64,000 nucleotides of DNA from Zoogloea sp. (GTDB taxonomy: Bacteria > Pseudomonadota > Gammaproteobacteria > Burkholderiales > Rhodocyclaceae). This document shows positions 30,547-63,831 of this stretch, in pieces. Location of the stretch: positions 62,001 to 126,000 of the forward strand of contig NZ_JAQVCN010000004.1 in NCBI RefSeq assembly GCF_028689785.1. Direction: 5' to 3'. The position numbers and the translations under genes are program-made. Each line of letters starts with the position of its first letter. Within the stretch, counting starts at the first letter, position 1. The notes beneath the pieces are model-generated. The model was not told the DNA's origin and did no database searches. It saw nothing but the letters and a program-made list of their open reading frames with translations.

Positions 30547-30576
30547 CCGTGGGGTCGAATTTATTCGACCCCACGG
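30547..30576. repeat. Dispersed palindrome, short form (copy A)
   Basis: Perfect 14-bp arms, CCGTGGGGTCGAAT and its reverse complement, around TT. It lies between the convergent 3' ends of sppA and the DUF2782 gene. It is the first of a series of related sites running to 63.8 kb. It could act as a bidirectional terminator-like hairpin. Confidence 0.9.
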
Positions 30577-30595
30577 GGTATGACTCACCAGCGAC

Positions 30596-30934
30596 TCACC
30601 AGCGCTTGATCACCCACTTGGGCACGCGGAGGCCGCTGTCCTGGGCGTCGCGGCGGGTGAAGTCGCCGTTGCCGATGTCGTCGTAGAGGTAGTAGGGCGC
30701 GCCCCCCGGCGGGGTGACCTTGACCATGTAGAGCTGACCATTGACCCGGTACTCCTCCACCGTGTCCTCACCTTTCTTCGTGATTGTGACCTGGGGCTCG
30801 GCGGCCTGGTCAAGCTCCATGCCTGGCGGCGGGGGCGGCGGCTCGGGGAGCGGTTCGAGCTTGGGGGGTTGCTGGGCCCAGGCCGGGGCGGCGAGGGCGA
30901 ACAACAGGGCTGCAATGTAAGGTGCACGGGGCAT
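30596..30934 (-). CDS. DUF2782 periplasmic protein
   Basis: 112 residues. A signal peptide (MPRAPYIAALLFALAAPAWAQ) is followed by a Pro-rich linker (KLEPLPEPPPPPPGMELDQ) and the small DUF2782 domain (PQVTITKKGEDTVEEYRVNGQLYMVKVTPPGGAPYYLYDDIGNGDFTRRD...VPKWVIKRW). This domain is common in betaproteobacteria, typically close to polA, as here. Function unknown. It follows the LOG-family gene by 47 bp on the same strand. Confidence 0.85.
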   Translation of the reverse strand: MPRAPYIAALLFALAAPAWAQQPPKLEPLPEPPPPPPGMELDQAAEPQVTITKKGEDTVEEYRVNGQLYMVKVTPPGGAPYYLYDDIGNGDFTRRDAQDSGLRVPKWVIKRW

Positions 30935-30981
30935 TTCGTGATCTCCTGGCTATGCCGAGATTGTAACCCTTTGCCGTCCGG

Positions 30982-31707
30982 CTACAGGTTGAGCATCAGT
31001 TCGTGCTCTTCGGGAAGCGGCAGGAAACCGCGGCTCTGATAGTGGTCAAAGATGGCATCCACCACCTTCTCCGGTTCGTCAATCAGCTGCACCAGGTCAA
31101 GGTCGTCCGGGTTGATCATGCCCTCCTCTACCAACCTGTCCTTGAACCAATCAATGAGCCCGCGCCAGAAGGGCTCGTGCACCAGGATCACAGGAATCTT
31201 GCGGCTCTTGCCAGTCTGGATCAGGGTCATCGCCTCAAGCAGTTCGTCCAGGGTGCCGAAGCCACCAGGCATCACCACGTAGGCCGTGGCGAACTTGACG
31301 AACATGAACTTGCGCGCAAAAAAGTGCTGGAAAGTCTGGGAGATGTCCTGATAGGGGTTGGCCTGCTGCTCCATGGGCAGCTGGATGTTGAGCCCCACGC
31401 TGGGCGACTTGCCGAAGTAGGCGCCCTTGTTGGCCGCCTCCATGATGCCGGGGCCGCCGCCGGAGATCACCGAGAAGCCCGCGTCCGACAGCAGCCGGGC
31501 AATGCGCTCGGTGGTGGCGTAGTAGGGGTGATCGGGCTTGATGCGGGCGCTGCCGAAGATGGACACCGCCGGGCGGATGGGCTTGAGCCGCTCAGTCGCC
31601 TCGACGAACTCTGCCATAATCCCGAAAATCCGCCACGACTCCCTGGCCGTGAAGTTCTGCGCCGCCGTGCTCGGCGCCATCCGGGGAAGTTTGTCTTTTG
31701 CAGTCAT
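30982..31707 (-). CDS. LOG-family nucleoside 5'-monophosphate phosphoribohydrolase-like protein
   Basis: 241 residues of the TIGR00730/LOG Rossmann family. The active-site signature PGGFGTLDELLEAMTLIQTGK and the upstream GGGPGIMEAANKGAY are intact. These enzymes release the base from nucleotides such as cytokinin riboside monophosphates or AMP-like substrates, and bacterial members are often misannotated as lysine decarboxylases. The start at 31707 is preferred; an upstream ATG at 31767 overlaps the divergent polA start and adds non-conserved sequence. Probably co-transcribed with the DUF2782 gene. Confidence 0.88.
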   Translation of the reverse strand: MTAKDKLPRMAPSTAAQNFTARESWRIFGIMAEFVEATERLKPIRPAVSIFGSARIKPDHPYYATTERIARLLSDAGFSVISGGGPGIMEAANKGAYFGKSPSVGLNIQLPMEQQANPYQDISQTFQHFFARKFMFVKFATAYVVMPGGFGTLDELLEAMTLIQTGKSRKIPVILVHEPFWRGLIDWFKDRLVEEGMINPDDLDLVQLIDEPEKVVDAIFDHYQSRGFLPLPEEHELMLNL

Positions 31708-31765
31708 TGTTTTTCTGATTGAGGAGTGCGGGAGGCCCGGCGTGCCCGGCCCTCCCCGATTGCCC

Positions 31766-34486
31766 ATGCCGACCCTGCTGCTCGTCGACGGTTCCAGTTA
31801 CCTCTACCGCGCCTTCCACGCCCTGCCCGACCTGCGCAACTCGTCCGGCGAACCGACCGGCGCCGTGCGCGGGGTGTTGTCCATGCTACGTCGCCTCGAA
31901 TCCGACTACAAGGCGGAGTATCGCGCCTGCGTATTCGACGCCAAGGGCAAGACCTTCCGCGACGACTGGTTTCCAGACTACAAGGCCCAGCGCCCGCCCA
32001 TGCCCGACGACCTGCGGGCCCAGATCGAGCCCCTGCACGAGGCCGTGAAGGCCGAGGGCTGGCCGCTGCTGATGGAAGAGGGCGTGGAGGCCGACGACGT
32101 GATCGGCACCCTCACCCGCCAGGCCGTGGACGCCGGCTGGGAGGTGGTGATCTCCACCGGCGACAAGGACCTCACCCAGCTCGTGCAGCCCGGCGTACGC
32201 TGGGTGAACACCATGAGCGAGGAAGTGCTGGATGAAGCCGGCGTCACCGCCAAGTTCGGCGTGCCGCCGAATCTCATCGTCGACTACCTCGCACTGATCG
32301 GCGACACCGTGGACAACGTACCTGGCGTGGAAAAGTGCGGCCCCAAGACCGCCGTCAAATGGCTCACCGAATACGGCAACCTGGACAATCTGGTGGCCAA
32401 CGCCGACAAGGTGGGCGGCAAGGTGGGCGAGAACCTGCGCAAACACCTGGACTTCCTGCCCCTGGGCCGCAAGCTGGTCACCGTGGTCACCGACCTGCCC
32501 CTGCCGGTAGGCCCCGCCGACCTGCCCGCGCGGGATGACGACAAGGACGCCCTGGCGGCCATCTACCGGCGCATGGAGTTCAAGGGCTGGCTGAAGGAGC
32601 TGGAAGAGGGCGTACACCGCCCTGCCCCGGCGGCGGGCGAAACCCCGGCCATCGAGGCCCCGGGCGAACCCGGCGCCCACCGCACGGGCTACGAGACCCT
32701 GCTCGACCGCGCCGCCCTGGACGCCTGGCTGGCCAGGATCTCCGCCGCCAACCTCACCGCCTTCGACACCGAAACCACCGGCCTCGACCCCATGGTGGCC
32801 ACCCTGGTGGGCATGTCCTTCGCCACCGTCGAAGGTGAGGCTGCCTACCTGCCCCTGGCCCACGGCTATGCCGACGCCCCGGCCCAGCTGCCCCTGGCCG
32901 AAGCACTCGACGTGCTGCGCCCCTGGCTCGAATCCGACACCCACCACAAGGTCGGCCAGAACCTCAAATACGACGCCCACATCCTGGCCAACCACGGCAT
33001 CGCCCTGGCCGGCATTGCCGACGACACCCTGCTTGAGTCCTACATCCTCGAGAGCGACAAGTCCCACGACATGGACTCCCTGGCCAGCCGCCACCTGGGC
33101 CTCAAGACCCTCACCTATGCCGAGGTCTGCGGCAAGGGCGCCAAGCAGATCGGCTTTGGCGAGGTGGAGCTGGCCCGGGCCACCGAATACGCCGCCGAGG
33201 ACGCCGACATCACCCTGCGCCTGCACCACGCCCTGTCGCGCCAGCTGGAGGCCGAACCCACCCTTGCCGCCCTCTACCGGGACGTGGAGCTGCCCACCGC
33301 CCGGGTGCTCTTCGAGATGGAGCGCAACGGCGTGCTCATCGACGACTTCCTGCTCGCCCAGCACTCCGAAGAGCTCGGCCGCCGCCTGCACGAGCTGGAG
33401 CTGCAGGCCCATGAACTGGCCGGCCAGCCCTTCAACCTGGGCTCCCCCAAGCAGCTCGGTGAAATCCTGTTCACCAAACTGGGCCTGCCCGTGGTCAAGA
33501 AGACCGCCACCGGCCAGCCGTCGACGGACGAAGACGTGCTCACCCAGCTGGCCGACGACTACCCGCTGCCCAAGCTGCTGCTGGAGCACCGCAGCCTGGC
33601 CAAGCTCAAGAACACCTACACCGACAAGCTGCCGCTGATGGTCAACCGCAAGACCGGCCGGGTGCACACCAGCTTCAGCCAGGCCGTGGCCGTCACCGGG
33701 CGCCTGGCCAGCACCGAACCCAACCTGCAGAACATCCCCATCCGCACGCCCGAAGGCCGCCGCATCCGCGCCGCCTTCATCGCCCCGGCCGGCCACCGTA
33801 TCGTTTCTGCCGACTACTCCCAGATCGAACTGCGCATCATGGCCCACCTGTCCGCCGACCCGGGCCTGCTCAAAGCCTTCGCCGAAGGCGAGGACGTGCA
33901 CCGCGCCACCGCCGGCGAGATCTTCGGCGTGACGCCCCTGGAAGTCACCAGCGAGCAGCGCCGCTACGCCAAGGTGATCAACTTCGGCCTGATCTACGGC
34001 ATGAGCGCCCACGGCCTGGCCAAAAACCTGGGCATCGACCGGGTAGCCGCCGCCAACTACATCGACCGCTACTTCGCCCGCTACCCCGGCGTCGCCGCGT
34101 ACATGGAGCGCACCCGCACGGAGGCCAAGGTCCAGGGCTATGTCGAAACGGTGTTCGGGCGCCGCCTGCACCTGCCCGAGATCCGCGCCCAGCAGGTGGG
34201 CCGCCGTCAGGCTGCCGAGCGGGCCGCCATCAACGCGCCCATGCAGGGCACCGCCGCCGACCTGATCAAGAAGGCCATGATCGCCACCTCGGCCTGGCTC
34301 AAGGCCAGCGGCGTCAAGTCAAAGCTGATCCTGCAGGTACACGACGAGCTGGTGCTCGAAGTGCCGGACGACGAAGTCGCCCTGATCCGCGAACAGCTGC
34401 CAAGACTGATGGCCGGCGTGGCGCAACTTTCCGTGCCCCTGGTTGCCGAAGTGGGCGTCGGCGCAAACTGGGACGAAGCCCATTGA
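31766..34486 (+). CDS. polA: DNA polymerase I
   Basis: 906 residues. Three domains in order. The 5'-3' nuclease is MPTLLLVDGSSYLYRAFHALPDL...GVEADDVIGTLTRQA...GDTVDNVPGVEKCGPKTA. The 3'-5' proofreading exonuclease has an intact first motif, AFDTETTGLDP. The family A polymerase has motif A VSADYSQIELRIMAHLS, the O-helix RRYAKVINFGLIYGMSAHGLA and motif C ILQVHDELVLEVPDDE. All key carboxylates are seen, so proofreading should be active. It removes primers and fills gaps in repair. The start at 31766 begins the nuclease domain; an upstream in-frame extension overlaps the divergent LOG gene. Confidence 0.98.
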   Translation: MPTLLLVDGSSYLYRAFHALPDLRNSSGEPTGAVRGVLSMLRRLESDYKAEYRACVFDAKGKTFRDDWFPDYKAQRPPMPDDLRAQIEPLHEAVKAEGWPLLMEEGVEADDVIGTLTRQAVDAGWEVVISTGDKDLTQLVQPGVRWVNTMSEEVLDEAGVTAKFGVPPNLIVDYLALIGDTVDNVPGVEKCGPKTAVKWLTEYGNLDNLVANADKVGGKVGENLRKHLDFLPLGRKLVTVVTDLPLPVGPADLPARDDDKDALAAIYRRMEFKGWLKELEEGVHRPAPAAGETPAIEAPGEPGAHRTGYETLLDRAALDAWLARISAANLTAFDTETTGLDPMVATLVGMSFATVEGEAAYLPLAHGYADAPAQLPLAEALDVLRPWLESDTHHKVGQNLKYDAHILANHGIALAGIADDTLLESYILESDKSHDMDSLASRHLGLKTLTYAEVCGKGAKQIGFGEVELARATEYAAEDADITLRLHHALSRQLEAEPTLAALYRDVELPTARVLFEMERNGVLIDDFLLAQHSEELGRRLHELELQAHELAGQPFNLGSPKQLGEILFTKLGLPVVKKTATGQPSTDEDVLTQLADDYPLPKLLLEHRSLAKLKNTYTDKLPLMVNRKTGRVHTSFSQAVAVTGRLASTEPNLQNIPIRTPEGRRIRAAFIAPAGHRIVSADYSQIELRIMAHLSADPGLLKAFAEGEDVHRATAGEIFGVTPLEVTSEQRRYAKVINFGLIYGMSAHGLAKNLGIDRVAAANYIDRYFARYPGVAAYMERTRTEAKVQGYVETVFGRRLHLPEIRAQQVGRRQAAERAAINAPMQGTAADLIKKAMIATSAWLKASGVKSKLILQVHDELVLEVPDDEVALIREQLPRLMAGVAQLSVPLVAEVGVGANWDEAH

Positions 34487-34516
34487 GCCCCAACCCGGAC
34501 CTGAAAACCCTCCCCC

Positions 34517-35041
34517 ATGTACCACCGCTTTGCCGTTTTCCTGCTGAGCTTTGCTCTCGCGGCCTGCAGCAGCTTGTCGTCCAAGCCCAAGGACGAGAGC
34601 TATAAACTCGAGAACTTCACGCCCGACTCGCCCTATGAGCAATCCTTCGAGATCAAACCCGAAGCCGCGTGCGAGGCCGGACGCCGGGCGCTGCTCAGCC
34701 AGGGCTACCTGATCGACGAGAGCAAGCCGGACTCGGTGCGCGCCCGCAAATACTTCCAGCCCGACCGCAGCACCCAGATCCAGCTCACCTTCAGCCTGTT
34801 CTGCCTGGCAGAGGAGCAGGGTGATCACCAAGGCTCTGCAGTCTATGCCAACGTCCGCCAGGTGCGCGAAGAGCTCAAGGCCGGCTCCGCCAGCACCGGC
34901 CTCAGCGTCACCGGCATCGGCTCCCTGTCCCTGCCCTTCGGCGGCAACAACGAATCCCTGGTCAAGGTCGGCGAAGAAACCGTCACCGACGCCGAGTTCT
35001 ACGGGCGCTTCTTCGCCCTGATGCAGTCCTTCATCCGATGA
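34517..35041 (+). CDS. DUF2242-like lipoprotein
   Basis: 174 residues with a lipoprotein signal (FLLSFALAACSS, lipidated Cys at C17), so it is membrane-anchored in the envelope. The mature part has no clear catalytic motif: EIKPEAACEAGRRALLSQGYLIDESKPDSVRARKYFQPD, then a Gly/Ser-rich stretch (SASTGLSVTGIGSLSLPFGGNNESLVKVGEETVTDAEFYGRFF). This matches the DUF2242 family as I recall it; function unknown. It follows polA by 30 bp and its stop overlaps the lytic transglycosylase start (ATGA). Confidence 0.75.
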   Translation: MYHRFAVFLLSFALAACSSLSSKPKDESYKLENFTPDSPYEQSFEIKPEAACEAGRRALLSQGYLIDESKPDSVRARKYFQPDRSTQIQLTFSLFCLAEEQGDHQGSAVYANVRQVREELKAGSASTGLSVTGIGSLSLPFGGNNESLVKVGEETVTDAEFYGRFFALMQSFIR

Positions 35042-36372
35042 TAAAGCCCAGCTTGCCCCCCTCTCATACAGGCACCCCTCTCCCTGCAGAGGCAACGTGT
35101 AGGGGCGACTTCAGTCGCCCATCCGCGCGCAATACTCTGCGCCGTTCGTTGCTCGACGTCAGTGGGCGACTGAAGTCGCCCCTACAGGGGGTAGCACTGG
35201 CGCTGTTCCTTGCCTCCGCCGCCCACGCCGCCGACACCCCCGACCCCGCCCGCTTCGCCCCCTGCGTGGCCGAGCTCAAATCCGGCGCCCTGGCCCGGGG
35301 GGTGTCCGCTGCCGGCTACGAGCGCCTCACCGCCAGCCTGCAGCCCGACCTGAAGGTGCTGGATTTCCTCGACTACCAGCCCGAGTTCCGCACCCCCATC
35401 TGGGACTACCTCTCCGGCCTGGTGGACGACGAGCGCGTGACCGACGGCCAAGCCATGCTCAAACAATGGGGCGACACCCTCAATGCCGTGGCCGCCCGCT
35501 ACAAGGTAGACCCGGCCACCGTGGTCGCCGTGTGGGGAGTGGAAAGCAACTTCGGCCGCAACTTCGGCAGCCGTCCCCTGCTCACGTCCTTGTCCACCCT
35601 GTCCTGCTACGGGCGCCGCCAGGCCTACTTCCGTGGCGAGTTCTACGACGCCCTGAAGATCGTAGATGCCGGCGACGTGAAGGCCGAGCAGATGGTCGGC
35701 TCCTGGGCCGGCGCCTTCGGCCACACCCAGTTCATGCCCTCCACCTTCCTGCGTCTGGCCGTGGACTTTGACGGCGACGGCCGCCGCGACCTGGTGGGCA
35801 GCATCCCCGACGCCCTCGCCTCCACCGCCAACTTCCTCAAGAAAGCCGGCTGGCGCGAAGACGAAGTGTGGGGCTTTGAGGTGCGCCTGCCCGCCGGCTT
35901 CGACGCCAGCGGCGCCGGCCGGCGCAACAAACAGGCCCTGTCCGCCTGGGCCGCCCGGGGCGTCAAGCGCAGCGACGGCAGCCCCCTCGCTGGCGACGGC
36001 AGTGCCGGCCTGCTGCTGCCCGCCGGCCCCAAGGGCCCGGCCTTCCTGGTGTTCCGCAACTTCGACGCCATCTACGGCTACAACGCCGCCGAAAGCTACG
36101 CCCTGGCCATCGCCCACCTGTCCGACCGCCTGCGCGGCGGCGGCCCCTTCGCCACCCCCTGGCCCACCGACGACGCCGGCCTCTCCCGCGCCGAACGCCG
36201 GGAGGTACAGACCCTGCTCGCCGCCCGCGGTCACGCCATCGGCGCCATCGACGGCATGCTCGGCGACGCGAGCCGCGCGGCGATCCGGGTCGAACAGCAG
36301 CGCCTGGGGCATAACGTGGATGGGCGGGCGGGGCAGAAGCTGTTGAAGGCGCTCAAGGAGAATCGTGGATGA
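35038..36372 (+). CDS. Lytic murein transglycosylase, MltB family, with REP-like insert in leader
   Basis: 444 residues. Cleaves the MurNAc-GlcNAc bond with release of anhydro-muropeptides in the periplasm. The catalytic region AVWGVESNFGRNFGSRPLLTSLSTL holds the general-acid Glu, followed by SWAGAFGHTQFMPSTFLRLAVDFDGDGRRDL. A peptidoglycan-binding domain forms the C-terminus (LSRAERREVQTLLAARGHAIGAIDGMLGD). Odd point: a palindromic REP-like unit (35098-35186) is translated as residues ~21-50, ahead of the hydrophobic core VALALFLASAAHA of the export signal. The ATG at 35038 overlaps the lipoprotein stop; an alternative TTG at 35149 would give a compact normal signal peptide. Confidence 0.88.
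   Translation: MIKPSLPPSHTGTPLPAEATCRGDFSRPSARNTLRRSLLDVSGRLKSPLQGVALALFLASAAHAADTPDPARFAPCVAELKSGALARGVSAAGYERLTASLQPDLKVLDFLDYQPEFRTPIWDYLSGLVDDERVTDGQAMLKQWGDTLNAVAARYKVDPATVVAVWGVESNFGRNFGSRPLLTSLSTLSCYGRRQAYFRGEFYDALKIVDAGDVKAEQMVGSWAGAFGHTQFMPSTFLRLAVDFDGDGRRDLVGSIPDALASTANFLKKAGWREDEVWGFEVRLPAGFDASGAGRRNKQALSAWAARGVKRSDGSPLAGDGSAGLLLPAGPKGPAFLVFRNFDAIYGYNAAESYALAIAHLSDRLRGGGPFATPWPTDDAGLSRAERREVQTLLAARGHAIGAIDGMLGDASRAAIRVEQQRLGHNVDGRAGQKLLKALKENRG
35098..35186. repeat. REP/BIME-like inverted repeat inside a coding leader
   Basis: Arm TGTAGGGGCGACTTCAGTCG (35098 onward, 24 bp in all) recurs perfectly inverted at 35163-35186 around a 41-bp spacer. Each arm is itself an imperfect palindrome (GGCGACT-TC-AGTCGCC), the classic layout of a REP pair. 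It is in frame and stop-free within the transglycosylase leader. Confidence 0.85.
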
Positions 36373-37208
36373 GTGCCCCCCATCAACCCGACGCCTCCCC
36401 CCTCGGCAAGGCCGTCTCCTACGCCGAGCACTACGCCCCCGAGCTGCTCTTTCCCATCTCTCGCCAGGGCAAGCGGGACGAGATCGGCATCGCCCCCGGC
36501 GCCCTGCCCTTCGTCGGCGAAGACCTGTGGACAGCCTTCGAGCTGTCGTGGCTCAGCCCCCGGGGCAAGCCCGAGGTCGCCCTGGCCCACTTTCGGGTGC
36601 CGGCGGATTCGCCCAACATCGTCGAATCCAAGTCCTTCAAGCTCTACCTGAACGCCTTCAACCAGACCAGCGTGGCCAGCGTGGCCGAGCTGGAGGCGAC
36701 CCTGGCGCGGGATCTGTCGGCTGCGGCCGGCGCGCCGGTGATGGTGCAGGTGGAGCCCCTGTCGGGCCGGCCCCGGCGGGCCATCGGCTATCCCGAGGGT
36801 GTGCTGCTGGACACCCTGGACATCGCGGTAGACCGCTACACCCCCGACCCCGGCCTGCTGCGCGCCGCCGCCGGCCAGCCGGAGGTGGAGGAGACCCTGT
36901 ATTCCCACCTGCTCAAGTCCAACTGCCTGGTTACCGGCCAGCCGGACTGGGGCATGGTGGTGATCCGCTACCGGGGCGCGCCCATCGACCGGGAAGGGCT
37001 GCTGCGCTACATCATCTCCTTCCGCCGCCACAACGAATTCCACGAGCAGTGCGTGGAGCGCATCTACACCGACCTGCTGCGCCAGTGCCGGCCCAGCGAG
37101 CTGTGCGTGTGGGCCCGCTACACCCGCCGCGGCGGGCTGGACATCAACCCCTGCCGACGTACTGCAGGTCTATCTGCCCCGGCCCCCATCGCCGAGGTTA
37201 GACAATGA
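36369..37208 (+). CDS. queF: NADPH-dependent 7-cyano-7-deazaguanine reductase
   Basis: 279 residues, the long two-domain form of QueF. Reduces preQ0 to preQ1 in queuosine synthesis for tRNA. The nucleophile is C186 in [23 protein letters not shown]. The substrate-binding Glu lies in the QSF-like/[14 protein letters not shown] region ([12 protein letters not shown]), and the tail [11 protein letters not shown] is near the usual family terminus. Start and stop overlap both neighbours (ATGA each), so it is coupled to the lytic transglycosylase and murB. The last ~15 residues diverge from the family norm. Confidence 0.95.
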
Positions 37209-38263
37209 GCCGCAATCCCACCGTCTCCGCCGACAGCCTGCTGCGCCAGGGCGTGGCCCTCGACAGCCTCAACACCCTGCGCCTGCCCGCCCGGGCCGCC
37301 TGGTTCGCCGCGGTGGATGACGTGGACGGCCTGCGCGCCGTGCTCGACGACCCGCGGGTGGCCGGCCTGCCCCGGCTGGTGATCGGCGGTGGCTCCAACC
37401 TGGTGCTCACCGGCGACTTTCCCGGCCTGGTGCTGCACGTGGTCTTCCACGGCCGCAGCCGGGTGCAGGAAGACGCCGAGGCCTTCTTCGTCCGCGCAGG
37501 TGGTGGCGAGAACTGGCACGACTTCGTGCGCTGGACCCTGGAGATGGGCTGGCCCGGCCTGGAGAACCTGTCCCTGATCCCCGGCACCGTCGGCGCCGCG
37601 CCTGTGCAGAACATCGGCGCCTACGGCATCGAGATGGCCGAGCATTTCTACAGCCTGCGCGCCTACGACCTCGAAACCGGCAAGACCGTCGGCTTCGACA
37701 AGCGCGACTGCGCCTTCGGCTACCGGGACAGCTTCTTCAAGCAGGCTGGCAAGGGTCGCTACCTGATCGCCGCCGTCACCTTCCGCCTGCCCAAGGCGTG
37801 GAAAGCCAACACCGGCTACGCCGACGTGGCCCGGGAGCTGGAGGCCCGGGGCATCGCCGAGCCCAACGCCCTGCAGGTGTCGGACGCGGTCATCGCCATC
37901 CGCCGCCGCAAGCTGCCCGACCCGGCCGAGATCGGCAACGCCGGCAGCTTCTTCAAGAACCCGGTGGTGAGCGCCACCGAGCACGCACGCCTCATCGCCC
38001 TGCACCCGGGCCTGCCCAGCTATCCGCAGCCCGACGGCCGGGTCAAGCTGGCTGCCGGCTGGCTGATCGAACAGGCCGGCTGGAAGGGCCGGCGCCTGGG
38101 CCCGGTGGGCTGCTACGAGAAGCAGGCCCTGGTGCTGGTGAACCACGGGGGCGCCACCGGCGCCGACGTGATCGCCACCAGTGCCGCCGTGCGTGCCGAT
38201 GTGCGCACCCGCTTTGGCGTCGAGCTGGAACCCGAGCCGGTGTTTGCCGGCCCCGCCGCCTGA
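37205..38263 (+). CDS. murB: UDP-N-acetylenolpyruvoylglucosamine reductase
   Basis: 352 residues, type I (E. coli-like) MurB. FAD enzyme that makes UDP-MurNAc in the cytoplasm for peptidoglycan. The FAD-binding segments are [22 protein letters not shown] and [21 protein letters not shown]. The catalytic Ser region is [12 protein letters not shown]. The C-terminal substrate domain includes [40 protein letters not shown]. Its start overlaps the queF stop and its stop overlaps the start of a small membrane protein gene. Confidence 0.97.
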
Positions 38264-42562: not shown

Positions 42563-42598
42563 GTGGGGTCGTCCGTGGCCGAGTGAATTCGACCCCAC
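42563..42598. repeat. Dispersed palindrome, spaced form (copy B)
   Basis: GTGGGGTCG (42563-42571) and CGACCCCAC (42590-42598) bracket an 18-bp spacer. The right half reads GAATTCGACCCCAC like the other copies. It lies just 3' of the AraC gene and upstream of the PBP gene. Confidence 0.8.
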
Positions 42599-46604: not shown

Positions 46605-46636
46605 CCCGTGGGGTCGAATTCATTCGACCCCACGGG
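46605..46636. repeat. Dispersed palindrome, short form (copy C)
   Basis: 15-bp perfect arms around TC directly after the LolA-like stop. It forms the left edge of the long-form copy 1, showing that the short palindrome and the long element share termini. Confidence 0.9.
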
Positions 46637-47084
46637 AGAGTCGCGCTGGCCGTTGATGACCTGCATTTCCGGTCCCCTCTGGCGCGCCGACTGGAGGGCT
46701 CGGCAGGCGGAAAAGGGCTGCGCATGTCTGAGCCCGCTGGGCGAGTTTGCGCAGACCCCGCCTGACGGGCCCGGAAAGAGGGAACCCCCGAAGGGGGCGC
46801 GACAGCGGGGTACGTTTTCTTGCCTTCTTCTTTGTCGTACAACAAAGAAGAAGGTCGCCCGCCGGGGGCGAGTCCCCGGCCAATGTGACGTAAGAGAACG
46901 AAAAACCGTCCCGTAAGCGCTCACCGGTTCGCGGCCGAACAAACGGAATGAGTCAACAATGTTCGGGCGAACGTCCAGAAATCGCTTCCACCCCGGAAGC
47001 CAAGGCTCTCCAAGCCCAGCGGGCCTGCTCGGGATAGTGTTTACATACCGAATGCGAACAGTGCCAATGAATTCGACCCCACGG
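46605..47084. mobile_element. Long-form dispersed element, copy 1
   Basis: Begins with a perfect short-form palindrome (46605-46636, 15-bp arms CCCGTGGGGTCGAAT and reverse complement) and ends in a right-terminus half (TGAATTCGACCCCACGG, 47068-47084). Between them, 46646-46913 matches 55112-55379 almost base for base, and 46995-47063 matches 55379-55447. An 81-bp segment (46914-46994) is extra here. It contains a strong hairpin at 46823-46854 (CCTTCTTCTTTGT and its complement, 6-nt loop). No transposase or credible ORF; fragments coding for Arg/Lys-rich peptides are noise. This fills the 46583-47137 gap between the LolA-like and barrel genes. Confidence 0.85.
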
Positions 47085-47137
47085 AGAAAATCCCTGAGCC
47101 CAGAGTGTCAGACGAACTCGTGCAGAGGGGAAACAGG

Positions 47138-54760: not shown

Positions 54761-54763
54761 AGG

Positions 54764-55528
54764 CCCGTGGGGTCGAATTTATTGGCGATGTTCGCGTTAA
54801 GCGTGGAAAGCGTTTTCGCCCCGACAGGGAAGGCTCACCAATCCTGGCGTGACGTTGGCCGGGAATTCGCCCCGGCGGGCGACCTTCTTCTTTGCTTCGC
54901 CAAAGAAGAAGGCAAGAAAGGCGACCCGGCCACCCCGGTCATTCGCTGCGCGAATGACTCCCCTGCGCTGCTCCCAGCAGGCGGCCGGCGCGGAACTCGC
55001 CCTTCGGGCTCAGACAGCCGCGCCGGACTTCCCCGCCCGCTGGTGCGCTGCTCGGCGGGTCGGAACGGGCTTTTCGGATGCACCGAGCCCCTGCGGAAAT
55101 CGAGTCGGGCACTGGCCGTTGATCACCTGCATTTCCTTTCCCCTCTGGCGCGCCGACTGGAGGGTTCGGCAGGCGGAAAAAGGGCTGCGCATGTCTGAGC
55201 CCGCAGGGCGAGTTTGCGCAGACCCCGCCTGACGGGCCCGGAAAGAGGGAACCCCCGAAGGGGGCGCGACAGCGGGGTACGTTTTCTTGCCTTCTTCTTT
55301 GTCGTACAACAAAGAAGAAGGTCGCCCGCCGGGGCGAGTCCCTGGCCAATGTGACGTAAGAGAACGGAAAACCGTCCCGGAAGCCAAGGCTCTCCAAGCC
55401 CAGCGGGCCTGCTCGGGATAGTGCTTACATACCGAACGCGAACAGAGCCAATTTATTCGACCTGCTCACGCCAATCACCGGCAAGCCGCTGACCAAAGTC
55501 CGCGGTCGAATGAATTCGACCCCACGGG
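54764..55528. mobile_element. Long-form dispersed element, copy 2 (inverted dimer)
   Basis: Occupies the 834-bp gap between rtcB and cobB. The left terminus is CCCGTGGGGTCGAATTTATT (54764-54783) and the right terminus is 55435-55462, with a further palindromic half GGTCGAAT-GA-ATTCGACC at 55504-55521. Matching arms: 54771-54798 with 55435-55462, 54851-54918 with 55286-55355, and 54994-55016 with 55192-55214 (one mismatch), all centred near 55103. The whole is therefore a long imperfect palindrome of two opposed units. The right half equals copy 1 from 46646. Hairpins with arms CCTTCTTCTTTG occur in both halves (54883-54912 and 55290-55321). No transposase or credible gene. Confidence 0.85.
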
Positions 55529-55594
55529 GAACGCCACGGAGCCCAAGGTGGCAGACAACTTCAAACCAAGGAAAGTAGGCTGACTAGCCAGCGC

Positions 55595-56899
55595 TCAGGC
55601 GCCGAACAGGGCCGCCACCGTCGCCGGATTGGACGGGAAGTAGAAGTGCACATAGGAGGCAGTGAGGCGGCCGAGGCGGTAGATGGCCTCGCCCTCGCGG
55701 CCGGCTGGCGTGGTGGCGCGGGCCAGGGGCGCCAGGGGCGTCTCGCTCTTCGAATAGTGGAAGGTGTGGCCGGTGAGGCGCCCTTCCGGCAGCTCGGCCA
55801 CCTGGGTGCCCAAGGCGGCCAGGCGGGCCTGCATGCGGGTGTGGCCGGGGAGCAGACCGGCGCCCGGATGGGTGGTGCCCTCCCGGTCGGTGATGCTTTC
55901 AAACAGGCTCATCATGCCACCGCACTCTGCCAACAGGGGCTTGCCGGCGGCCTGGTGGGCCTTCAGCCCGGCCTGCCAGCCGGCGTTGGCGGCCAGGGCT
56001 TCGGCATGGAGCTCGGGGTAGCCGCCCGGCAACCACAGGGCATCGCAATCGGGCACGACCTCGCCGGCCAGGGGAGAGAAGAAGATCGGCTCGGCCCCGA
56101 GGGAGGCCAGGGTGTCCAGGTTGGCCGGATAGATGAAGCCGAAGGCAGCGTCCCGGGCGATGGCGACACGCCGCCCCTGAAGCAGGGGCGCCACGTGGGG
56201 CGCCGGCGCGTCGGGGAAGGCCACCGCCACCGGGCGGTCGGCAGCGCCAGTACGCGCCAGATGGTCGGCCAGGCGATCCAGGCGGGCGTCCAGATCGGCG
56301 ATCTCGGCGGCCTGGAGCAGGCCCAGGTGGCGCTCGGGCAGCGCCGCGTCGGCGTCCCGCGGGAGGGCGCCATACCAGGCGATGCCGGGGCGCAGGCTGT
56401 CCTGCAGCAGGCGGGCGTGGCCCTCGCTGCCCACATGGTTGGCGAGCACCCCCGAGAAGGGCAGGTCCGGCTGCCAGGTGGCCAAGCCGTGGACCAGGGC
56501 CCCGAAGGTCTGGGCCATGGCCTTGGCGTCGATCACCGCCATCACCGGCACGCCGAAGAGGCGGGCAATGTCGGCCCCGGAGGGGCTGCCATCAAACAGG
56601 CCCATCACCCCTTCGATGAGGATCAGGTCGGAACTGCGGGCCGCCGCGTGCAGGCGCCAGGCTGCGTCAGCGGAGCCGCACATGCCCAGGTCCAGGTTAT
56701 AGACCGGCGCCCGGCTGGCCACCGCATGGATCTGTGGGTCCAGAAAATCCGGCCCGCACTTGAACACCGTCACGCGGCGCCCCTGGCGGGTGTGCAGACG
56801 GGCCAGAGCGGCGGTGACAGTGGTCTTGCCCTGACCGGACGCCGGTGCGGCGACAAACAGGGCGGGGCACAGGGCGGGGTCGCGCAACGGGCTATTCAT
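55595..56899 (-). CDS. cobB: Cobyrinate a,c-diamide synthase
   Basis: 434 residues, typical length for CobB/CbiA. ATP-dependent amidation of the a and c side chains of (hydrogeno)cobyrinate in cobalamin synthesis. The N-terminal dethiobiotin-synthetase-like domain has the P-loop [19 protein letters not shown] and [17 protein letters not shown]. The C-terminal class-I-like glutaminase has the Cys in [16 protein letters not shown] plus [11 protein letters not shown] and [10 protein letters not shown]. The start at 56899 overlaps the cobA stop by 8 bp, so the two are co-translated. Only part of the cobalamin pathway is seen here; the rest must lie elsewhere. Confidence 0.93.
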
Positions 56900-57677
56900 C
56901 AGGGTGGAACCAGGCGAGGCGGGGCTGCAGGCTGACCACGTCACCGACGATGGTCAGGGCCGGAGGGGTGATACCGGCGGCCTTGACGGCAGCCGGCAGA
57001 CCGGCGAGATCGGAGGTGACGACCCGCTGCTCACGGGTGGTGCCGCGCCGCACCACCGCCGCCGGCGTGGTCGCCGCCAGGCCATGGGCAGTGAGCTGGG
57101 CGCAGATCTCCGCCATCTGGGTGATGCCCATGTAGAACACCAGGGTCTGCTTTCGCCGGGCCAGCATCTCCCAGTCCAGGTCCACCGAACCATCCTTGAG
57201 GTGACCGGTGACAAAGATGCACGACTGCGCAAAGTCCCGGTGGGTCAGGGGAATGCCGGCGTAGGCGCCAATGCCCGCCGCCGCAGTGATGCCGGGGATG
57301 ACCTCGAAGGGCACACCGGCCTTGACCAGCTCCTCCACCTCTTCACCACCACGCCCGAAGATGAAGGGGTCTCCGCCCTTCAGGCGTACCACCTTGCGGC
57401 CCTCCCCGGCCAGCTTCACCAGCAGGGCATTGATGCCTTCCTGGGGCAGGGAATGATTGGAGGCTTTCTTGCCTACGTAGATGCGCTCGGTGGCCGTCGG
57501 CACGCAGGCCAGGACCTCCTTGCTGACCAGGTTGTCGTAAACCAGCACGTCGGCCTCAAGCAGCAGACGCGCAGCGCGCAGGGTGAGCAGTTCCGGGTCG
57601 CCGGGGCCGGCACCCACCAGGTACACCCACCCCGGCCGGGCCGGGGAACGTTCGCGGGGGAAGGAGGAATCGGGCAC
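56892..57677 (-). CDS. cobA: Uroporphyrinogen-III C-methyltransferase (second paralogue)
   Basis: 261 residues. SAM-dependent formation of precorrin-2, the branch point to siroheme, cobalamin and heme d1. Motifs are [58 protein letters not shown] and a C-terminal [20 protein letters not shown]. It lacks the low-complexity N-terminal extension of the nirE copy at 6.8 kb. Position between the CobL-like gene and cobB suggests cobalamin or siroheme supply. The stop overlaps the cobB start by 8 bp. It is a stand-alone SUMT, not the CysG fusion. Confidence 0.93.
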
Positions 57678-57701
57678 GTCAGCGCTCCAGCAAGGAATGT
57701 T

Positions 57702-59603
57702 TCAGGATAGCGCCGGCTTGCGCCACAGGGCCAGACGAACCGGGGCGCTGGGTGCAAAGCGCAGACGCCCCGCCACCGTCTCGCCCCGGGACAGGCTGAG
57801 CTCCTGCCAGGCCTCGGCGGGCACCTGGTTGGCAAAGGCAAGGAGATCGGCGCGGGCCTGATCGTCTTCGGCCGTGGCGACCAGCCGGCCGCCCGGCGCA
57901 AGACGCGCCCAGGCTGCGGCCAACCAGTCGCTGAGGCCAACCCCGCCGCGGATGAACACAGCTTCGGGCACCGGCCACTCGCGGCAGCGCAGGGGCGAGG
58001 CCGAGGGAATGGCGGAGAGCTTGTCCCCCACCCCGGCGCGGGCCATGCTGACGCCCAACAGGGTGGGCTCGATGCCCACGGCCCGCACTCGGGCGGTGGG
58101 CACGGCACGGGCCCACTCCAGAGCCAGGCTGGCTTCGCCCTCGCTGATGACCCAGCCCGTTTCCCAGGCGGCAGGCTGCAGCCAGGCCATGGCCAGGACG
58201 CGGGCAGCCAGGGGCAGCGCCGCGCCTGCTTCGTCACCGAAGGCCGCATCGGACAGGCCGGGCAGCTCGGCAAACACGCCGGAAGACGGGCCGGTGGCGA
58301 CAATCAGCACGGCGTGGGTATCGAAGGCCTCACGCATCTCCACCAGCTCGCTGGCCAACCAGGCGCGGGCCTGCAAGCTGCCGGCGATGAACTCGCAAAC
58401 CCACACCCGGGCCCCCGCAAAGCCGCTGTCGAGCAGCAGTCGGGCCACTGCCGCAGGCCCTTCGGCATCGGCCAGGGGCAGGGCAAACAGACAATGGGCG
58501 CGCAGGCGGCCGCGCAGGCCCGCCAGGGGCGCACGGCGCAGATCCACCACCGTGACCACCTCGGCCGACAGGCCCAGGGCGGCGCAGGCGGCCTGCACCC
58601 GGCCCACGCCGGGCAGCACGCGCACATAGGCCGGGCCCAGGTCGGCCAGCAGCTCGGGGGCCGGGCCGTCGCCGGCGCCATCACCGACCACCGCCAGCAC
58701 GCTGCCGGCGTGACCGACGACGCGCACATCCATGTGGGCAGAATCGGCGGCGCACAGCTGCTGGGGCGCCTCCAGGCCCAGGCCGGAAAGGCGGTCGAGG
58801 GCGTCGGCAGTGCCGAGAATCACCCGGGCGCCACGCAGGGCTTCGAGGGCCGCGGCGGACAACACCGGCGGCAGTTCGAGGCCCAGGCTGACAACAGTGA
58901 GAGGGGGCAGAGACTCCTCAGGCGTGGCGGCGACTTCGGGCGCGACGCCGGTATCTGCATCGGCAGCAGGTTCGGAGACGATCTCGAGGGTGATCCCGGG
59001 CTCGGACTCCCCGTCCGGCTCGGAGGGCAACCCGGTCGCGCCATCGGCCAGGCCGGGCATCTCGATCTGCTCACCGCGGGCAGCCTCCCGGTCAGCACCA
59101 CCCTTGCCACGGCGACGCTTGCGCTTGCGCCTGGGGCCTGCCGGGCCTTCTTCACCTTCGGAGGCGTCGTCGAACGGGGCATAGGCGCCATCGGAATGCT
59201 CCGCGCTGTCAGGGGCGTGAGAGGCCTCGTCACCGACAGCGACGACAGCACCTGGCTCGGGGCGGAGCTCGGCGACAGACACCTCCGGCGCGGGAAGCAG
59301 GGCGGGCGCGACGTCCGGCGTAGGAGCCGCGGCACCGGCAGGCTCCGCGAACAGATCGGCCGTGACTTCGTCGGGCTGCGCCTCGGCCGGCTTGGCCTTA
59401 GGCTTGCGCGGTGCTCGACGGGCCTTGGGTTTGGCTTCGGCCGCGTCGGCGACAGGCTCGACTGCGACGGCGTCTACGGTGGCCTCGGCCGGGGTGGCCG
59501 GGGCCTTCTTCTTGCGGGGGCTGCGGGCCGGGGCCTTGCGCGGAGCCGGGTTCGTCACCTCGGCCAACTCGGCCACCGGGGCGGAATTCTGTTCGTCGCT
59601 CAT
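57702..59603 (-). CDS. CobL/CbiE-CbiT-like protein with long disordered N-terminus, probably degenerate
   Basis: 633 residues. The first ~230 are Ala/Pro/Glu-rich with basic clusters (RSPRKKKAPATP, KPKARRAPRKPKAKPAE, PRRKRKRRRGKGG) and look disordered. From about residue 230 the sequence resembles CobL. A CbiE-like tetrapyrrole-methylase part (LTVVSLGLELPPVLSAAALEALRGARVILGT...VLPGVGRVQAACAALGL) precedes a CbiT-like part (EWPVPEAVFIRGGVGLSDWLAAAWARLAPGGRLVATAED). The usual CbiE signature (GxGxDG-type start and GRMSQL-like segments) and the CbiT SAM loop are weakened; the latter reads WETGWVISEGEASLALEWARAVP. It may be a scaffold or a diverged methyltransferase. Upstream of cobA by 24 bp on the same strand. 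Confidence 0.6.
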   Translation of the reverse strand: MSDEQNSAPVAELAEVTNPAPRKAPARSPRKKKAPATPAEATVDAVAVEPVADAAEAKPKARRAPRKPKAKPAEAQPDEVTADLFAEPAGAAAPTPDVAPALLPAPEVSVAELRPEPGAVVAVGDEASHAPDSAEHSDGAYAPFDDASEGEEGPAGPRRKRKRRRGKGGADREAARGEQIEMPGLADGATGLPSEPDGESEPGITLEIVSEPAADADTGVAPEVAATPEESLPPLTVVSLGLELPPVLSAAALEALRGARVILGTADALDRLSGLGLEAPQQLCAADSAHMDVRVVGHAGSVLAVVGDGAGDGPAPELLADLGPAYVRVLPGVGRVQAACAALGLSAEVVTVVDLRRAPLAGLRGRLRAHCLFALPLADAEGPAAVARLLLDSGFAGARVWVCEFIAGSLQARAWLASELVEMREAFDTHAVLIVATGPSSGVFAELPGLSDAAFGDEAGAALPLAARVLAMAWLQPAAWETGWVISEGEASLALEWARAVPTARVRAVGIEPTLLGVSMARAGVGDKLSAIPSASPLRCREWPVPEAVFIRGGVGLSDWLAAAWARLAPGGRLVATAEDDQARADLLAFANQVPAEAWQELSLSRGETVAGRLRFAPSAPVRLALWRKPALS

Positions 59604-59688
59604 GCTCTGTCAGCCACCACATTCGCAGCCGGAAAAACGGGGGTCGCAGGATAGCATGAAGCGTTTTCAGGCCAAGAGCAGCCGAACC

Positions 59689-59714
59689 GTGGGGTCGAAT
59701 TCAATCGACCCCAC
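59689..59714. repeat. Dispersed palindrome, short form (copy G)
   Basis: GTGGGGTCGA (59689-59698) and TCGACCCCAC (59705-59714) around ATTCAA, 12 bp beyond the stop of the FAD/Fe-S oxidoreductase gene. A CbiE/CbiT-like gene starts on the far side. Confidence 0.88.
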
Positions 59715-59726
59715 AAGGGCACCGGT

Positions 59727-62700
59727 TTACAGCAGCACGCGTTCGATGCCGCCCTGATTGGCCTTGGCGACGTAGTCGGACATCCAGCTGTCACCGAGGA
59801 TGTGCTTGGCCATCTCGACCACGATGTAGTCGGCATCCACGCCACCGGCATCGCTGCTGTAGCGGGACAGGCCCTGCAGGCAGCTCGGGCAGGAGGTGAG
59901 GATCTTGACCTGGGCGGTGGCGTCGGCGCCGCGGAGCTTCTCGGCACCCTTCTCGATCTCCTCCTGCTTGCGGAAGCGCACCTGGGTGGAGATGTCGGGG
60001 CGGGCCACGGCCAGGGTGCCGGATTCGCCGCAGCAACGGTCCGACAGATCGACCCGCGTACCCATCAGCTCGTTGGCCACCTTGATGCCGGAATGGACCT
60101 TCATGGGGGTGTGGCAGGGCTCGTGGTACATGTAGCGGGTGCCGGTGATGCCGTCGAGCTTGAGGCCCTTTTCCATGAGGTACTCGTGGATGTCGAGCAG
60201 CCGGCAGCCGGGGAAGATCTTTTCGAACTGGTACTTCTGCAGCTGATCCATGCAGGTGCCGCAGGACACGATCACCGTCTTGATGTCGAGATAGTTGAGC
60301 GTGTTGGCGACCCGGTGGAAAAGCACCCGGTTGTCGGTGGTGATCTTCTGGCCGGCATCCTCCTCGCCCGCGGCGGTCTGCGGATAGCCGCAGCACAGGT
60401 AACCCGGCGGCAGCACGGTGGTGGCCCCCACCTGGTAGAGCATGGCCTGGGTGGCGAGGCCCACCTGGCTGAACAGACGCTCGGAGCCGCAGCCAGGGAA
60501 GTAGAACACGGCCTCGGATTCGTCACGCTTGACCTGCGGGTTGCGGATCACCGGGACGATGGCGTCGTCCTCGATATCGAGCAGGGCCCGGGAGGTGCGC
60601 TTGGGCAGGCCGCCCGGCATGGGCTTGTTGATGAAGTGGATGACCTGGGCCTTGACCGGCGGCTTGCCCAGGGTAGCGGGCGGGTGCTGGACCTGATCCT
60701 GGATCAGCCCGAGGCTCTTGCCGATGCGGTGCCCCAGGCGCTGGGCCTTGTAGCCCCAGCCGATCATGCCGCTGCGGATCAGCTTGATGGTGGCCGGATC
60801 TTTGGCGGTGAGGAAGGCCATGGCCGCGGCCTTGCCGGGGTTGAAGGACTTCTTGCCCTGCTCGCGCAGCAGGTTGCGCATCTTGATCGACACGTCGCCG
60901 AAGTCGATGTCCACCGGGCAGGGCTTCTCGCACTTGTGGCACACGGTGCAATGGTCGGCCACATCCTCGAACTCCGCCCAGTGGGCCAGAGACACGCCGC
61001 GGCGGGTCTGCTCTTCGTAGAGGAAGGCCTCGATCAGCAGCGAGGTGCTGAGGATCTTGTTGCGCGGGCTGTAGAGCAGGTTGGCGCGGGGCACGTGGGT
61101 GGAGCACACGGGCTTGCACTTGCCACAGCGCAGGCAGTCCTTGATGTCGTGAGAGATCTCGCCGATGGCGGTCTGCTCCATGATCAGCGACTCATGCCCC
61201 ATCAGGTTGAAGCTGGGGGTGTAGGCGTTGTCGAGGTTGCCCTTGATCGGCCCGTTGCGCATCAGCTTGCCGCGGTTGAAGCGGCCTTCCGGGTCCACCT
61301 TCTGCTTGTAGGCCCAGAAGTTGGCCATCTCGGCGTCGGTGAGGTAGTCGAGCTTGGTGATGCCGATGCCGTGCTCACCGGAAATCACGCCATCAAGACT
61401 GCGGGCCAGCTCCATGATGCGGTCCACGGCCTTGTTGGCCGTTTGCAGCATCTCGTAGTTGTCGGAGTTGACCGGAATGTTGGTGTGCACATTGCCGTCG
61501 CCCGCGTGCATGTGCAGGGCCACGAAGACGCGGCCGCGGAGCACCTGCTTGTGCAGCTTCTTGATCTCCTCACGCACGGGCCCGAACAGCTGGCCGTCGA
61601 AGATCTTGTCGAGACGGGGCTTGAGTTCGGTCTTCCAGCCTGTGCGCACGGAGTAATCCTGCAGGCGGTGGAACAGGCGCGGGTTGGCCGCCCGGTTGGA
61701 CAGTTCGGCAGCCTGGATGCCGTAGTCGGCAAACTGCGGCTCGGCCTGGGCCAGAGGCAGGTCCAGGTTGTCGAGGAGCCACTGCCAGCGGCGACGCACG
61801 CTGGCCACGTAGTCCAGCGCGTCCTTGCGGCGCTCGCCGATGAGCTCGTCCCGGGAGATGGTGGCGTCACCGGTGTCCAGGGGCAGATCGCCCTGCAGCA
61901 GCTCGGCAAGGGCGTCGCACAGGGCCAGCTTGTTCTGGGTGGACAGCTCGATGTTGATGCGCTCGATGCCGTCGCAGTAGTCGCCCATGCGCGGCAGCGG
62001 AATCACCACGTCCTCGTTCACCTTGAAGGCGTTGGTGTGGCGGGAGATGGCGGCGGTGCGGGAGCGGTCGAGCCAGAACTTCTTGCGCTGCTCGGGGCTG
62101 ACGGCGATGAAGCCCTCGGCGCCGCGGGTGTTGGTCATGCGGATGACTTCGGAGGCGGCGGTCATCACCGCGTTCTCGTCGTGGCCGACGATGTCGCCGA
62201 TCAGCACCATCTTGGGCCGCCCGTGGCGCTTGGCCTTGGTGGTGTAGCCCACCGCCTTCACGTAGCGCTCGTCCAGGTGCTCCAGGCCGGCCAGCAGCAC
62301 GCCGGCAGCGTTGCCGGCACCGCCGGGCTTGAAGTAGTCGGTGATTTCGACGATGGCCGGCACGGCCTCGCGCACCTGGCCGAAGAACTCCAGGCACACG
62401 GTGCGGGTAACCGGCGGCATCTTGTGCAGCACCCAGCGCGAGGCGACGATGAGGCCGTCGGTGCCTTCCTTCTGCACGCCCGGCACGCCACCCAGGAACT
62501 TGTCGGTCACGTCCTTGCCCAGGCCGTCCTTGCGGCAGGAGGCGCCGGGCAGGGAGAGGATTTCTTCGGAAATGAACTTGTAGCCCCTGGCGTCGAAGCG
62601 CTTGAGGCGGAAGTGCACGGTTTCCTGTTCGTGGATCTTGCCGAAGTTGTGGTCGAGGCGTTCCACCTCCAGCCAGTTGCCGTCCGGCGTGACCATCTTC

Positions 62701-63629
62701 CACCAGGCCAGGTTGTCGAGGGCAGTGCCCCACAGCACGGCTTTCTTGCCGCCGGCGTTCATGGCGATGTTGCCGCCGATGCACGAAGCGCTGGCGGAGG
62801 TGGGGTCCACGGCAAACACACGGCCAGCGGCCGAGGCGGCTTCGGAGACGCGCTCGGTGACCACACCGGCACCGGTGCGGATGGTGGCGTAGGGGGCGCT
62901 CATGGGGCCGTTGAGGCCGGGCAGCACCACGTCCTCGACCGGTCCGAGGGTAATGAGCTTTTCGGTGTTGATGACCACCGATTTGGCGTCCAGCGGCACG
63001 GCGCCCCCGGTATAGCCGGTGCCGCCCCCGCGGGGGATGATGGTCAGGCCGAGCTCGATGCAGCTCTTCACCAGCGGGGCCATCTCTTCCTCGGTGTCGG
63101 GGTAGAGAACTACGAAGGGGTACTCGACACGCCAGTCGGTGGCGTCGGTAACGTGAGACACCCGGGCGTGGCCGTCAAAACAGATGTTGTCCTTGCGGGT
63201 GTGGCGAACCAGCTCGCGCTGCACGCGCTTGCGCAGCTCGGCGGTGTCCTGGAAAAGCTTGGCAAAGCGGTCGACGGCACCATGGGCCGCCACCACCAGG
63301 CTGGCCACCTTGGCACTGCGCTCGGGGTCTTCGGCACTGGATTCCTCGCGGCGCTTCTCGACCTCATGCAGGCGGTGGCGCAGCGCCCCGATCAGGGCAC
63401 CCTGGCGATCCCGGTTGCCGAGCAGGTCGTCCTGCAGGTAAGGGTTGCGCTGAACCACCCATACATCCCCCAGCACCTCGTAGAGCATTCTCGCGGAGCG
63501 GCCGGTGACGCGCTCGGAACGCAAGGCGTCCAGGGTTTTCCACGCCTCCTGGCCGAGCAGTCGAATGACGATCTCCCGGTCGGAGAACGAGGTGTAGTTG
63601 TAGGGAATTTCACGCAGGCGCTGAGTCAT
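59727..63629 (-). CDS. DUF3683 FAD-linked / Fe-S oxidoreductase
   Basis: 1300 residues, one of the largest proteins here. An N-terminal DUF3683 region ([26 protein letters not shown]) is followed by a PCMH-type FAD domain ([18 protein letters not shown]...[18 protein letters not shown]) and an FAD-oxidase C-terminal domain ([28 protein letters not shown]). Two 4Fe-4S motifs ([16 protein letters not shown] and [15 protein letters not shown]) come next, then two CCG domains ([16 protein letters not shown] and [15 protein letters not shown]). This is the layout of a D-lactate/glycolate-type dehydrogenase fused to a GlpC-like electron-transfer part. The substrate is unknown. The start at 63629 begins the conserved region; upstream in-frame sequence is intergenic. 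Confidence 0.9.
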
Positions 63630-63801
63630 CGGGATACCTGGGTCTGTGCAGCGGAGAACGGAGTATTTTAACGGACCGCTCCGCCTTCTGTCGAAAAACA
63701 AAGCCTTACGGAATCTGGGGGTTTGCCCGACAGGGCCGAAAGGAATACCAGGACACCTATTTTTGACTTCCCTGCCAGCGGCCGGTTCCGGCATGCCCTT
63801 C

Positions 63802-63831
63802 CCGTGGCGTCGAACTCAATCGACCCCACGG
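63802..63831. repeat. Dispersed palindrome, short form (copy H)
   Basis: CCGTGG-C-GTCGA (63802-63813) pairs with TCGACCCCACGG (63820-63831) around ACTCAA, with one mismatch (C for G). It sits 11 bp from the 3' end of the RidA-like gene. Confidence 0.82.

Follow-up and report, generated by a model that had tools for sequence, protein, structure and literature searches.

In Pseudomonas fluorescens SBW25, the accessible text of Bertels & Rainey (2011; PMC3116915) describes REPINs, or GI-GIII doublets of repetitive extragenic palindromic (REP) sequences, as inverted pairs with a short spacer that form one hairpin and lie outside genes, singlets being their remnants. REPs that flank genes for REP-associated tyrosine transposases (RAYTs) carry a GT(A/G)G head, and RAYTs are called obligately associated with REPs, in the available portions of Nunvar et al. 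(2010; PMC2817692). Here we describe a family of dispersed palindromes in a 64,000-nucleotide stretch of Zoogloea sp. (contig NZ_JAQVCN010000004.1, positions 62,001 to 126,000; hereafter the window) and in the rest of the same draft genome. Like the SBW25 REPINs, as far as that account could be consulted, the Zoogloea family has extragenic inverted REP pairs that form one hairpin; unlike them, it has a different sequence, 13 of its 57 catalogued pairs are 26-bp palindromes, and no RAYT was found in its host. With the REPs of Nunvar et al., as represented in the same portions, it shares the GTRG head followed by a palindrome, and RAYTs of Haliea and Parahaliea adjoin the Zoogloea-family hairpin (Haliea is not named in those portions), whereas the sequence is again different and the Zoogloea REPs lack a RAYT that we could find. 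It is very probable that the palindromes are REPs with the REPIN as their mobile unit, probably copied by a RAYT, and they now probably constitute an orphan family. The family is new, apparently orphan in this draft genome, and ordinary in kind.

Exact copies of the terminal 12-mer (GTGGGGTCGAAT/ATTCGACCCCAC) are present in the window at 30549 and 30563, 42587, 46608 and 46622, 47071, 54767, 55514 and 59689, and inexact copies lie within window elements at 59703 (one mismatch), 63804 (two) and 63818 (one). When up to two mismatches are allowed, the window contains 15 matches compared with a shuffle mean of 5.1, and none of 100 shuffles reached 15; the other two-mismatch matches, at 14730, 16443 and 31933, are at chance level. 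Every position listed in a preliminary description of this DNA lies within about 10 bases of a copy or is part of the element named there. That description confined the family to the right half of the window, which is correct locally, the first 30 kb having no exact copy, but the same contig carries copies outside the window (C38:28672 and C38:50453; here and below, C denotes contigs of this genome, G congeners and L fetched loci). Genome-wide, counting exact 12-mers on both strands, GTGGGGTCGAAT occurs 122 times (61+61), far more than the handful that was held to speak against mobility, and the reversed pattern used as a control is absent (0+0). In 416 kb of fetched sequence (overlaps included) we obtained 265 REP-like matches at up to four mismatches and 146 at up to two, against one for the reversed pattern; many of the matches at three to four mismatches are the same hairpin on the opposite strand.

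Each REP unit consists of a GTGG head and a perfect 8-bp hairpin, GGTCGAAT-NN-ATTCGACC, which forms an 18-nt perfect palindrome. We write GTGG-GGTCGAATTCATTCGACC for the family REP with its GTGG head and GTAG-GGTCGAATTCATTCGACC for the GTAG-headed counterpart. The units have the GTAG/GTGG-type head, short palindrome and overall length of 20-40 bp by which REPs are recognised, together with high copy number (the 122 exact 12-mers) and intergenic position (none of 59 elements in a called gene). Three of 60 catalogued pairs were dropped (one nested, two spurious), and the 57 that remain fall into classes of 26 bp (13 pairs), 67-68 bp (4) and 83-88 bp (40). The 26-bp form is a palindrome, GTGG-hairpin-CCAC. 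The longer classes, 44 elements, are inverted REP pairs with a near-fixed spacer of about 41-43 nt or 23-24 nt, i.e. REPINs, and the one 85-bp copy for which the fold was tested forms a single long hairpin (z −7.5). Among the 26-bp palindromes, z is −7.3 at 30549 (−12.1 kcal/mol), −6.2 at 46608 and −4.8 at 59689, and the decayed elements at 42563 (−2.6) and 63804 (−3.1) fold more weakly. Stem variation among eight hand-selected REP types is compensatory, with five of the eight pairs changing on both sides and 64 of 64 cells paired; the GTCGGACT and GTCAGAAT types were excluded, their stems being in another register. Together with the 122 exact termini and the sites empty in a congener, this anatomy bears out the earlier view of a non-autonomous family of extragenic palindromes. 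What had been taken for long elements with the same termini proved to be partly REPINs and partly REPs interrupted by an insertion element.

Thauera is a relative of Zoogloea. The GTAG palindrome superfamily, which has members in Thauera (PMC3733652), is of the same style as the Zoogloea REPs, although the stems of Thauera GTAG-1 have 5 bp compared with 8 bp here; Zoogloea is not named in the accessible part of that paper. The inverted ends of about 28 bp and the small size of the elements could alternatively represent the terminal inverted repeats of a miniature inverted-repeat transposable element derived from a classical DDE insertion sequence. We think this very unlikely, since a GTGG head followed by a hairpin is present at each end separately, and this hairpin is found beside genes for HUH-type RAYTs; nor was a target duplication noticed in the empty-site alignments, on which no systematic scan was run.

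The placement of the elements was assessed for 59 of them (the 57 catalogued and the interrupted and spaced ones of the window). None lies inside a gene called with our own simple codon model, in which missed genes could hide a few exceptions; 40 are between tandem genes, 17 between convergent genes, 1 between divergent genes and 1 at the window edge. Elements lie at a median of 24.5 nt from gene 3′ ends (n = 74), compared with 109 nt from 5′ ends (n = 42); a few outliers extend as far as 1621 nt, at places where the model may have overlooked genes. Only 1 of the 59 elements is found in divergent gaps, which account for 17% of the intergenic length (binomial P = 2 × 10−4), and 33 of the 39 elements in tandem gaps occupy the half that adjoins the gene's 3′ end (P = 1 × 10−5). 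The initial impression that every copy is intergenic and close to a gene's 3′ end is in agreement with these figures. Such positions just past gene 3′ ends, many of them between convergent genes, and the strength of the hairpins are also what would be expected of independent intrinsic (bidirectional) terminators that have converged on one sequence. Convergence of this kind is highly improbable, because independent terminators would not be expected to be identical in sequence across the family, to fall into discrete lengths or to have empty sites, no U-tract follows the palindromes, and terminator scans of 30000-64000 flagged no whole palindrome. The one scan match relevant here (54762-54774) overlaps the left part of a split REP, and a search of Rfam gave no match at gathering scores. 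The suggested additional role as bidirectional terminators is likewise left without support by the scans and the missing U-tract; it is possible that the palindromes affect mRNA 3′ ends.

Comparison of orthologous intergenic regions, proposed at the outset as a check on mobility, did reveal empty sites. The closest of the 16 congeners searched, G010, is about 90% identical, and 16 sites in four regions of our genome could be compared with it, the class of each site being assigned by eye from the alignments. Six sites are empty in G010 (46608-47082, 54767-55525, C10:712, C81:25427, C90:249091+249221 and C90:256490), each representing a gain or a loss. Five slots hold a different REP type (30549, C10:3845/3971, C10:14747, C81:27696 and C81:29649), four the same type (42563, decayed; 59689; C10:13526; C81:25373, degenerate), and one is rearranged, G010 having about 1.9 kb of other DNA at C90:263899; no pairing with a congener site was possible for 63804, C10:17552 and C81:19613. 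In the slot of 30549, G010 carries a 26-bp REP of the GTAGGGGCGACT type between flanks that align poorly (0.40/0.43). Both the 46608 palindrome and the whole 54767-55525 block are missing from G005 as well as from G010, and G022 has a GGGCGACT-type pair at the former place and a GGGCGACT-type REPIN in the latter slot. The sites C90:249091+249221 and C90:256490 are also empty in G005, which favours a gain in the lineage of our genome.

A relationship between the size classes is seen at C10:13526, where an 87-bp REPIN in our genome is matched, in the equivalent position of G010, by a 26-bp palindrome with slight decay. Because the paired hairpins within a REPIN form near-direct repeats, deletion between them predicts a 26-bp palindrome, and the copies at 59689, which are exact reverse complements of one another in the two genomes, agree with the retention of a different hairpin in each lineage. 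We infer that the direction of collapse was from REPIN to 26-bp palindrome.

The least expected part of the findings is a change of REP type in place at one locus, C10:3845-3992. The REP units of our genome are here of the GGTCGAAT type, and those of G022, like the alignable units of G010 and G005, are of the GGGCGACT type. The flanks (30 bp on each side of the aligned units) are 63-93% identical between G022 and our genome and 73, 73, 73 and, on one side, 30% identical in G010; the truncated spacer after C10:3971 is common to G005, G022 and, partly, G010. To judge from these alignments, the kept flanks and spacer would be hard to explain by re-insertion. We tentatively suggest that an ancestral GGGCGACT-type REP population may have been partly converted in place to the GGTCGAAT type in this lineage, keeping flanks and spacer remnants, with REPs already present serving as substrates of gene conversion or RAYT-templated strand exchange. 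In the accessible text of PMC3686654, REP types changed by ‘orthoswitch’ are reported, as are REP classes that are abundant without their RAYT, the latter in keeping with a probable orphan population in this genome. The in-place change is argued from C10:3845-3992 only, because a spacer-rank test of same-slot REPINs of different type gave no evidence of orthology elsewhere (ranks 14, 18, 11, 7, 2, 40 and 6 of 41); orthology of such REPINs by spacer similarity was set aside on this result, which weighs against a wider conversion. It is unlikely that gene conversion between copies, instead of RAYT-driven copying, is the main process by which REPs are maintained and homogenised. The C10 locus and the failure to find a RAYT in our genome would agree with such a process, but the empty sites represent gain or loss of whole elements and the flank-supported change is limited to a single locus. 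The title of a 1988 review reportedly asked the same question (‘evolution by gene conversion?’).

RAYT genes stand beside the family hairpin in other bacteria. The contig end truncates the RAYT of Haliea Ww141 (L212), and a tandem array of five exact GTGG units comes after that gene; in Parahaliea (L209) GTAG-headed units of the same hairpin, accompanied by two additional types of stem, occur on both sides of a RAYT. Against NF047646 REP_Tyr_transpos the Parahaliea protein scores 147 bits (150 bits for the RAYT of congener G021; cut-off 80), and it shows a weak match to TnpArep of PDB 4er8 (E = 8 × 10−6). This linkage is likely to reveal the type of the cognate enzyme. Congener RAYTs are flanked by sister REP types, namely GGGCGAAT (L187/L204), GGGCGACT (L206 and L207) and GTCGGACT (L205 and L208). 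The 22-mer GTGGGGTCGAATNNATTCGACC was present in 9 of 120 genomes searched, i.e. our own and 8 of 22 congeners, and in none of the 97 genomes outside the genus but within the family and order. Its distribution in distant bacteria is a lower bound; among the matches listed it is found mainly in Gammaproteobacterium 8_bin.35, Haliea, Parahaliea and Rhodoferax, with at least one match in a Rhodopirellula bin. The spacers differ between these lineages. The shared 22-mer could reflect horizontal spread of RAYTs or convergence within a small stem space. With five Zoogloea/Rhodoferax RAYTs, which are themselves 53-62% identical to the sixth, the Parahaliea RAYT shares 43-56% identity; we therefore do not claim recent transfer. 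As separate observations, a RAYT homologue of G022:C111 (L210/L226) extends over two reading frames, possibly as a pseudogene or through a sequencing error, and no perfect REP was detected near it; and same-direction tandem arrays of a REP identical to that of Zoogloea, with a 38-44-bp period, are found at L102 and L138 (8_bin.35) and at L123 and L212 (Haliea Ww141), the last two being probably the same array seen twice.

The bases that precede the head provide information on the presumed cut site. In 128 units of our genome, GTGG is directly preceded by CC in 67, by CT in 21 and by TT in 18, and the intergenic background of CC is 10%; such an excess would be favoured by a GTGG guide. According to the accessible text of PMC8266576, in vitro cleavage of a GTGG substrate by a TnpAREP of Marinomonas took place at CA and CC. 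The Zoogloea REPs resemble, from sequence alone, the Group 3 TnpAREP/REPtrons of that study in having a perfect palindrome directly after the tetranucleotide and CC favoured before GTGG. In SZAS-78, CC and CT precede GTGG about equally (16 and 14). The GTAG-headed GTCGGACT type has CT before the head in 12 of 12 cases, largely from one tandem locus, and the GTAG-headed GGGCGACT type has TT in 6 and CT in 5 of 15.

The following mechanism would account for the family. The mobile unit would be the REPIN, two inverted GTGG-headed REPs around the 41-43-nt (or 23-24-nt) spacer. Its spread would most likely have involved single-stranded hairpins and their copying by a RAYT, an HUH endonuclease whose recognition signal may have been GTGG together with the hairpin and whose cut may have followed a CC/CT dinucleotide. 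This RAYT would since have been lost, or be missing from the draft, and the family would then be a population that has given up its mobility and is probably undergoing decay and remodelling. REPINs would collapse to 26-bp palindromes through hairpin-to-hairpin deletion, and an unrelated insertion element would split REPs at the hairpin centre.

Several observations weigh against this account. Past RAYT activity in the lineage is inferred, in that three models (PF01797; A1, a six-sequence RAYT profile; NF047646) detected no RAYT in our draft genome, and none was found in the REP-carrying congeners G001, G010 and G015 either. Among the Zoogloea RAYT loci fetched, none is flanked by an exact GGTCGAAT-type hairpin. 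The search for a cognate RAYT, which the preliminary description recommended, was therefore negative in this genome and positive in Haliea and Parahaliea, where RAYT and REP were seen linked within one genome (as in a REPtron). The preference for CC is not general, since Gammaproteobacterium 8_bin.35 has CT 91 times against 9 for CC, and in Haliea GTGG heads are preceded by TC 8 times against 4 for CC; the GTGG/CC guide rule would fit our genome without being general. Gain and loss are seen only as differences between species at about 90% identity, and some empty sites in G010 may be losses: C10:712 is occupied by a decayed REP-like hairpin in G005 and by a GGGCGACT-type REPIN in G022, which makes loss in G010 possible, and at C90:249091 REP-like sequence is present in G022.

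At 47068 and 54764, an insertion element has split a REP at the centre of its hairpin, leaving the ‘half’ copies seen there. Copies with two ends (in the window and at L325, L326, L327, L328, L330 and L332) are 666-769 bp long, with longest stop-to-stop frames of 148-210 amino acids, and identical 8-bp flanks are present in three of the seven (window, L325 and L328) and not in L326, L327, L330 and L332. In the fetched loci, 18 of 21 strict end motifs abut GGTCGAATNNATT (16 with no mismatch and 2 with one), a count biased to REP-linked copies because loci were fetched for resembling the window or carrying REPs; the other three, with 8-9 mismatches to GGTCGAATNNATT, look like chance, as do most of the matches listed in a looser scan for ends. 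Two further ends, at 55449 and 47065 of the window, do not conform to the strict motif, yet abut a REP. The REP family itself appears, from these junctions, to be a landing site for another mobile element. Insertion sequences that target REPs are known, and in this respect the Zoogloea element is like IS1397, IS621, ISPpu9/10 and ISRm22; its length, short frames, position at the hairpin centre and 8-bp identical flanks in three of seven copies set it apart from these in the accessible text of PMC1525189. A dispersed repeat of about 530 bp with CTTCTTCTTTG/CAAAGAAGAAG inverted segments is found at about 54845-55378 and 46638-46918 of the window, in C128, C12, C23, C71, C84 and partly C35 of our genome and in many congener copies, and is present also without the outer element.

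Table 1. REP-family elements and associated insertions in the window
Feature	Coordinates	Strand	Remarks
26-bp REP palindrome	30549..30574		between convergent genes
Decayed, spaced REP pair	42563..42598		decayed homologue at same place in G010
26-bp REP palindrome	46608..46633		motif match and catalogue
REP-targeting insertion element, truncated copy	46634..47065		right end at 47065
Outer part of REP unit (‘half’ at 47068)	47066..47082	-	cut at centre by insertion
Left part of REP unit of a REPIN (‘half’ at 54764)	54767..54783	+	ends in AATTTATT
666-bp insertion element without long reading frame	54784..55449		ends GGCnnTGTTCGCGTT; flanked on both sides by AATTTATT; holds ~530-bp dispersed repeat
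Remainder of interrupted REPIN	55450..55525		rest of left REP, 41-nt spacer, right REP 55504-55525
26-bp REP palindrome	59689..59714		common to G010, exact reverse complement there
Decayed 26-bp REP palindrome	63804..63829		no flank pair found in congeners

Eight of nine proteins neighbouring the window elements (Table 1) match Pfam families, including Peptidase_S49, RtcB, LolA-like and CobB/CobQ-like amidotransferase, and one has no match. The loci are strongly clustered across the genome: contigs totalling 2.46 Mb hold none of 77 loci (up to two mismatches, fetched sequence) where 37 would be expected, with the proviso that the catalogue takes in 115 of the 122 exact 12-mers, and a few of these ‘empty’ contigs may carry one of the 7 sites that were not fetched. 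C10, C63 and C81 contrast in this respect with the contigs without copies. At C15:16013, C35:39352, C48:44741 and C12:5276 chimeric REPs have ATCCTA as their second half in place of ATTCGACC, which suggests mixing with another REP type. A tail of about 55 bp (GAGCCCAAGGTGGCAGAC...) is repeated beyond the REP end at 55538 of the window and in C97, C90:256490, C81:19613 and C66:8034, with a variant at 47095 of the window, as if a sub-lineage had carried its flank along.

In the searchable literature, in which subscription journals are mostly outside scope, we found neither a REP study of Zoogloea (judged from the titles listed) nor the motif GTGGGGTCGAAT nor work on REPINs in Haliea. The present results add a REP/REPIN family in Zoogloea, a genus of activated sludge, in which a REPIN population without a detectable RAYT exists alongside congeners that have RAYTs of sister REP types. 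An orthologous pair links the REPIN to the 26-bp palindrome, and an insertion element is revealed at the centre of the REP hairpin. C10:3845-3992 is a locus at which the evolution of REPs by gene conversion is directly testable. If the rewriting in place is true, the family would evolve by conversion as well as by insertion.

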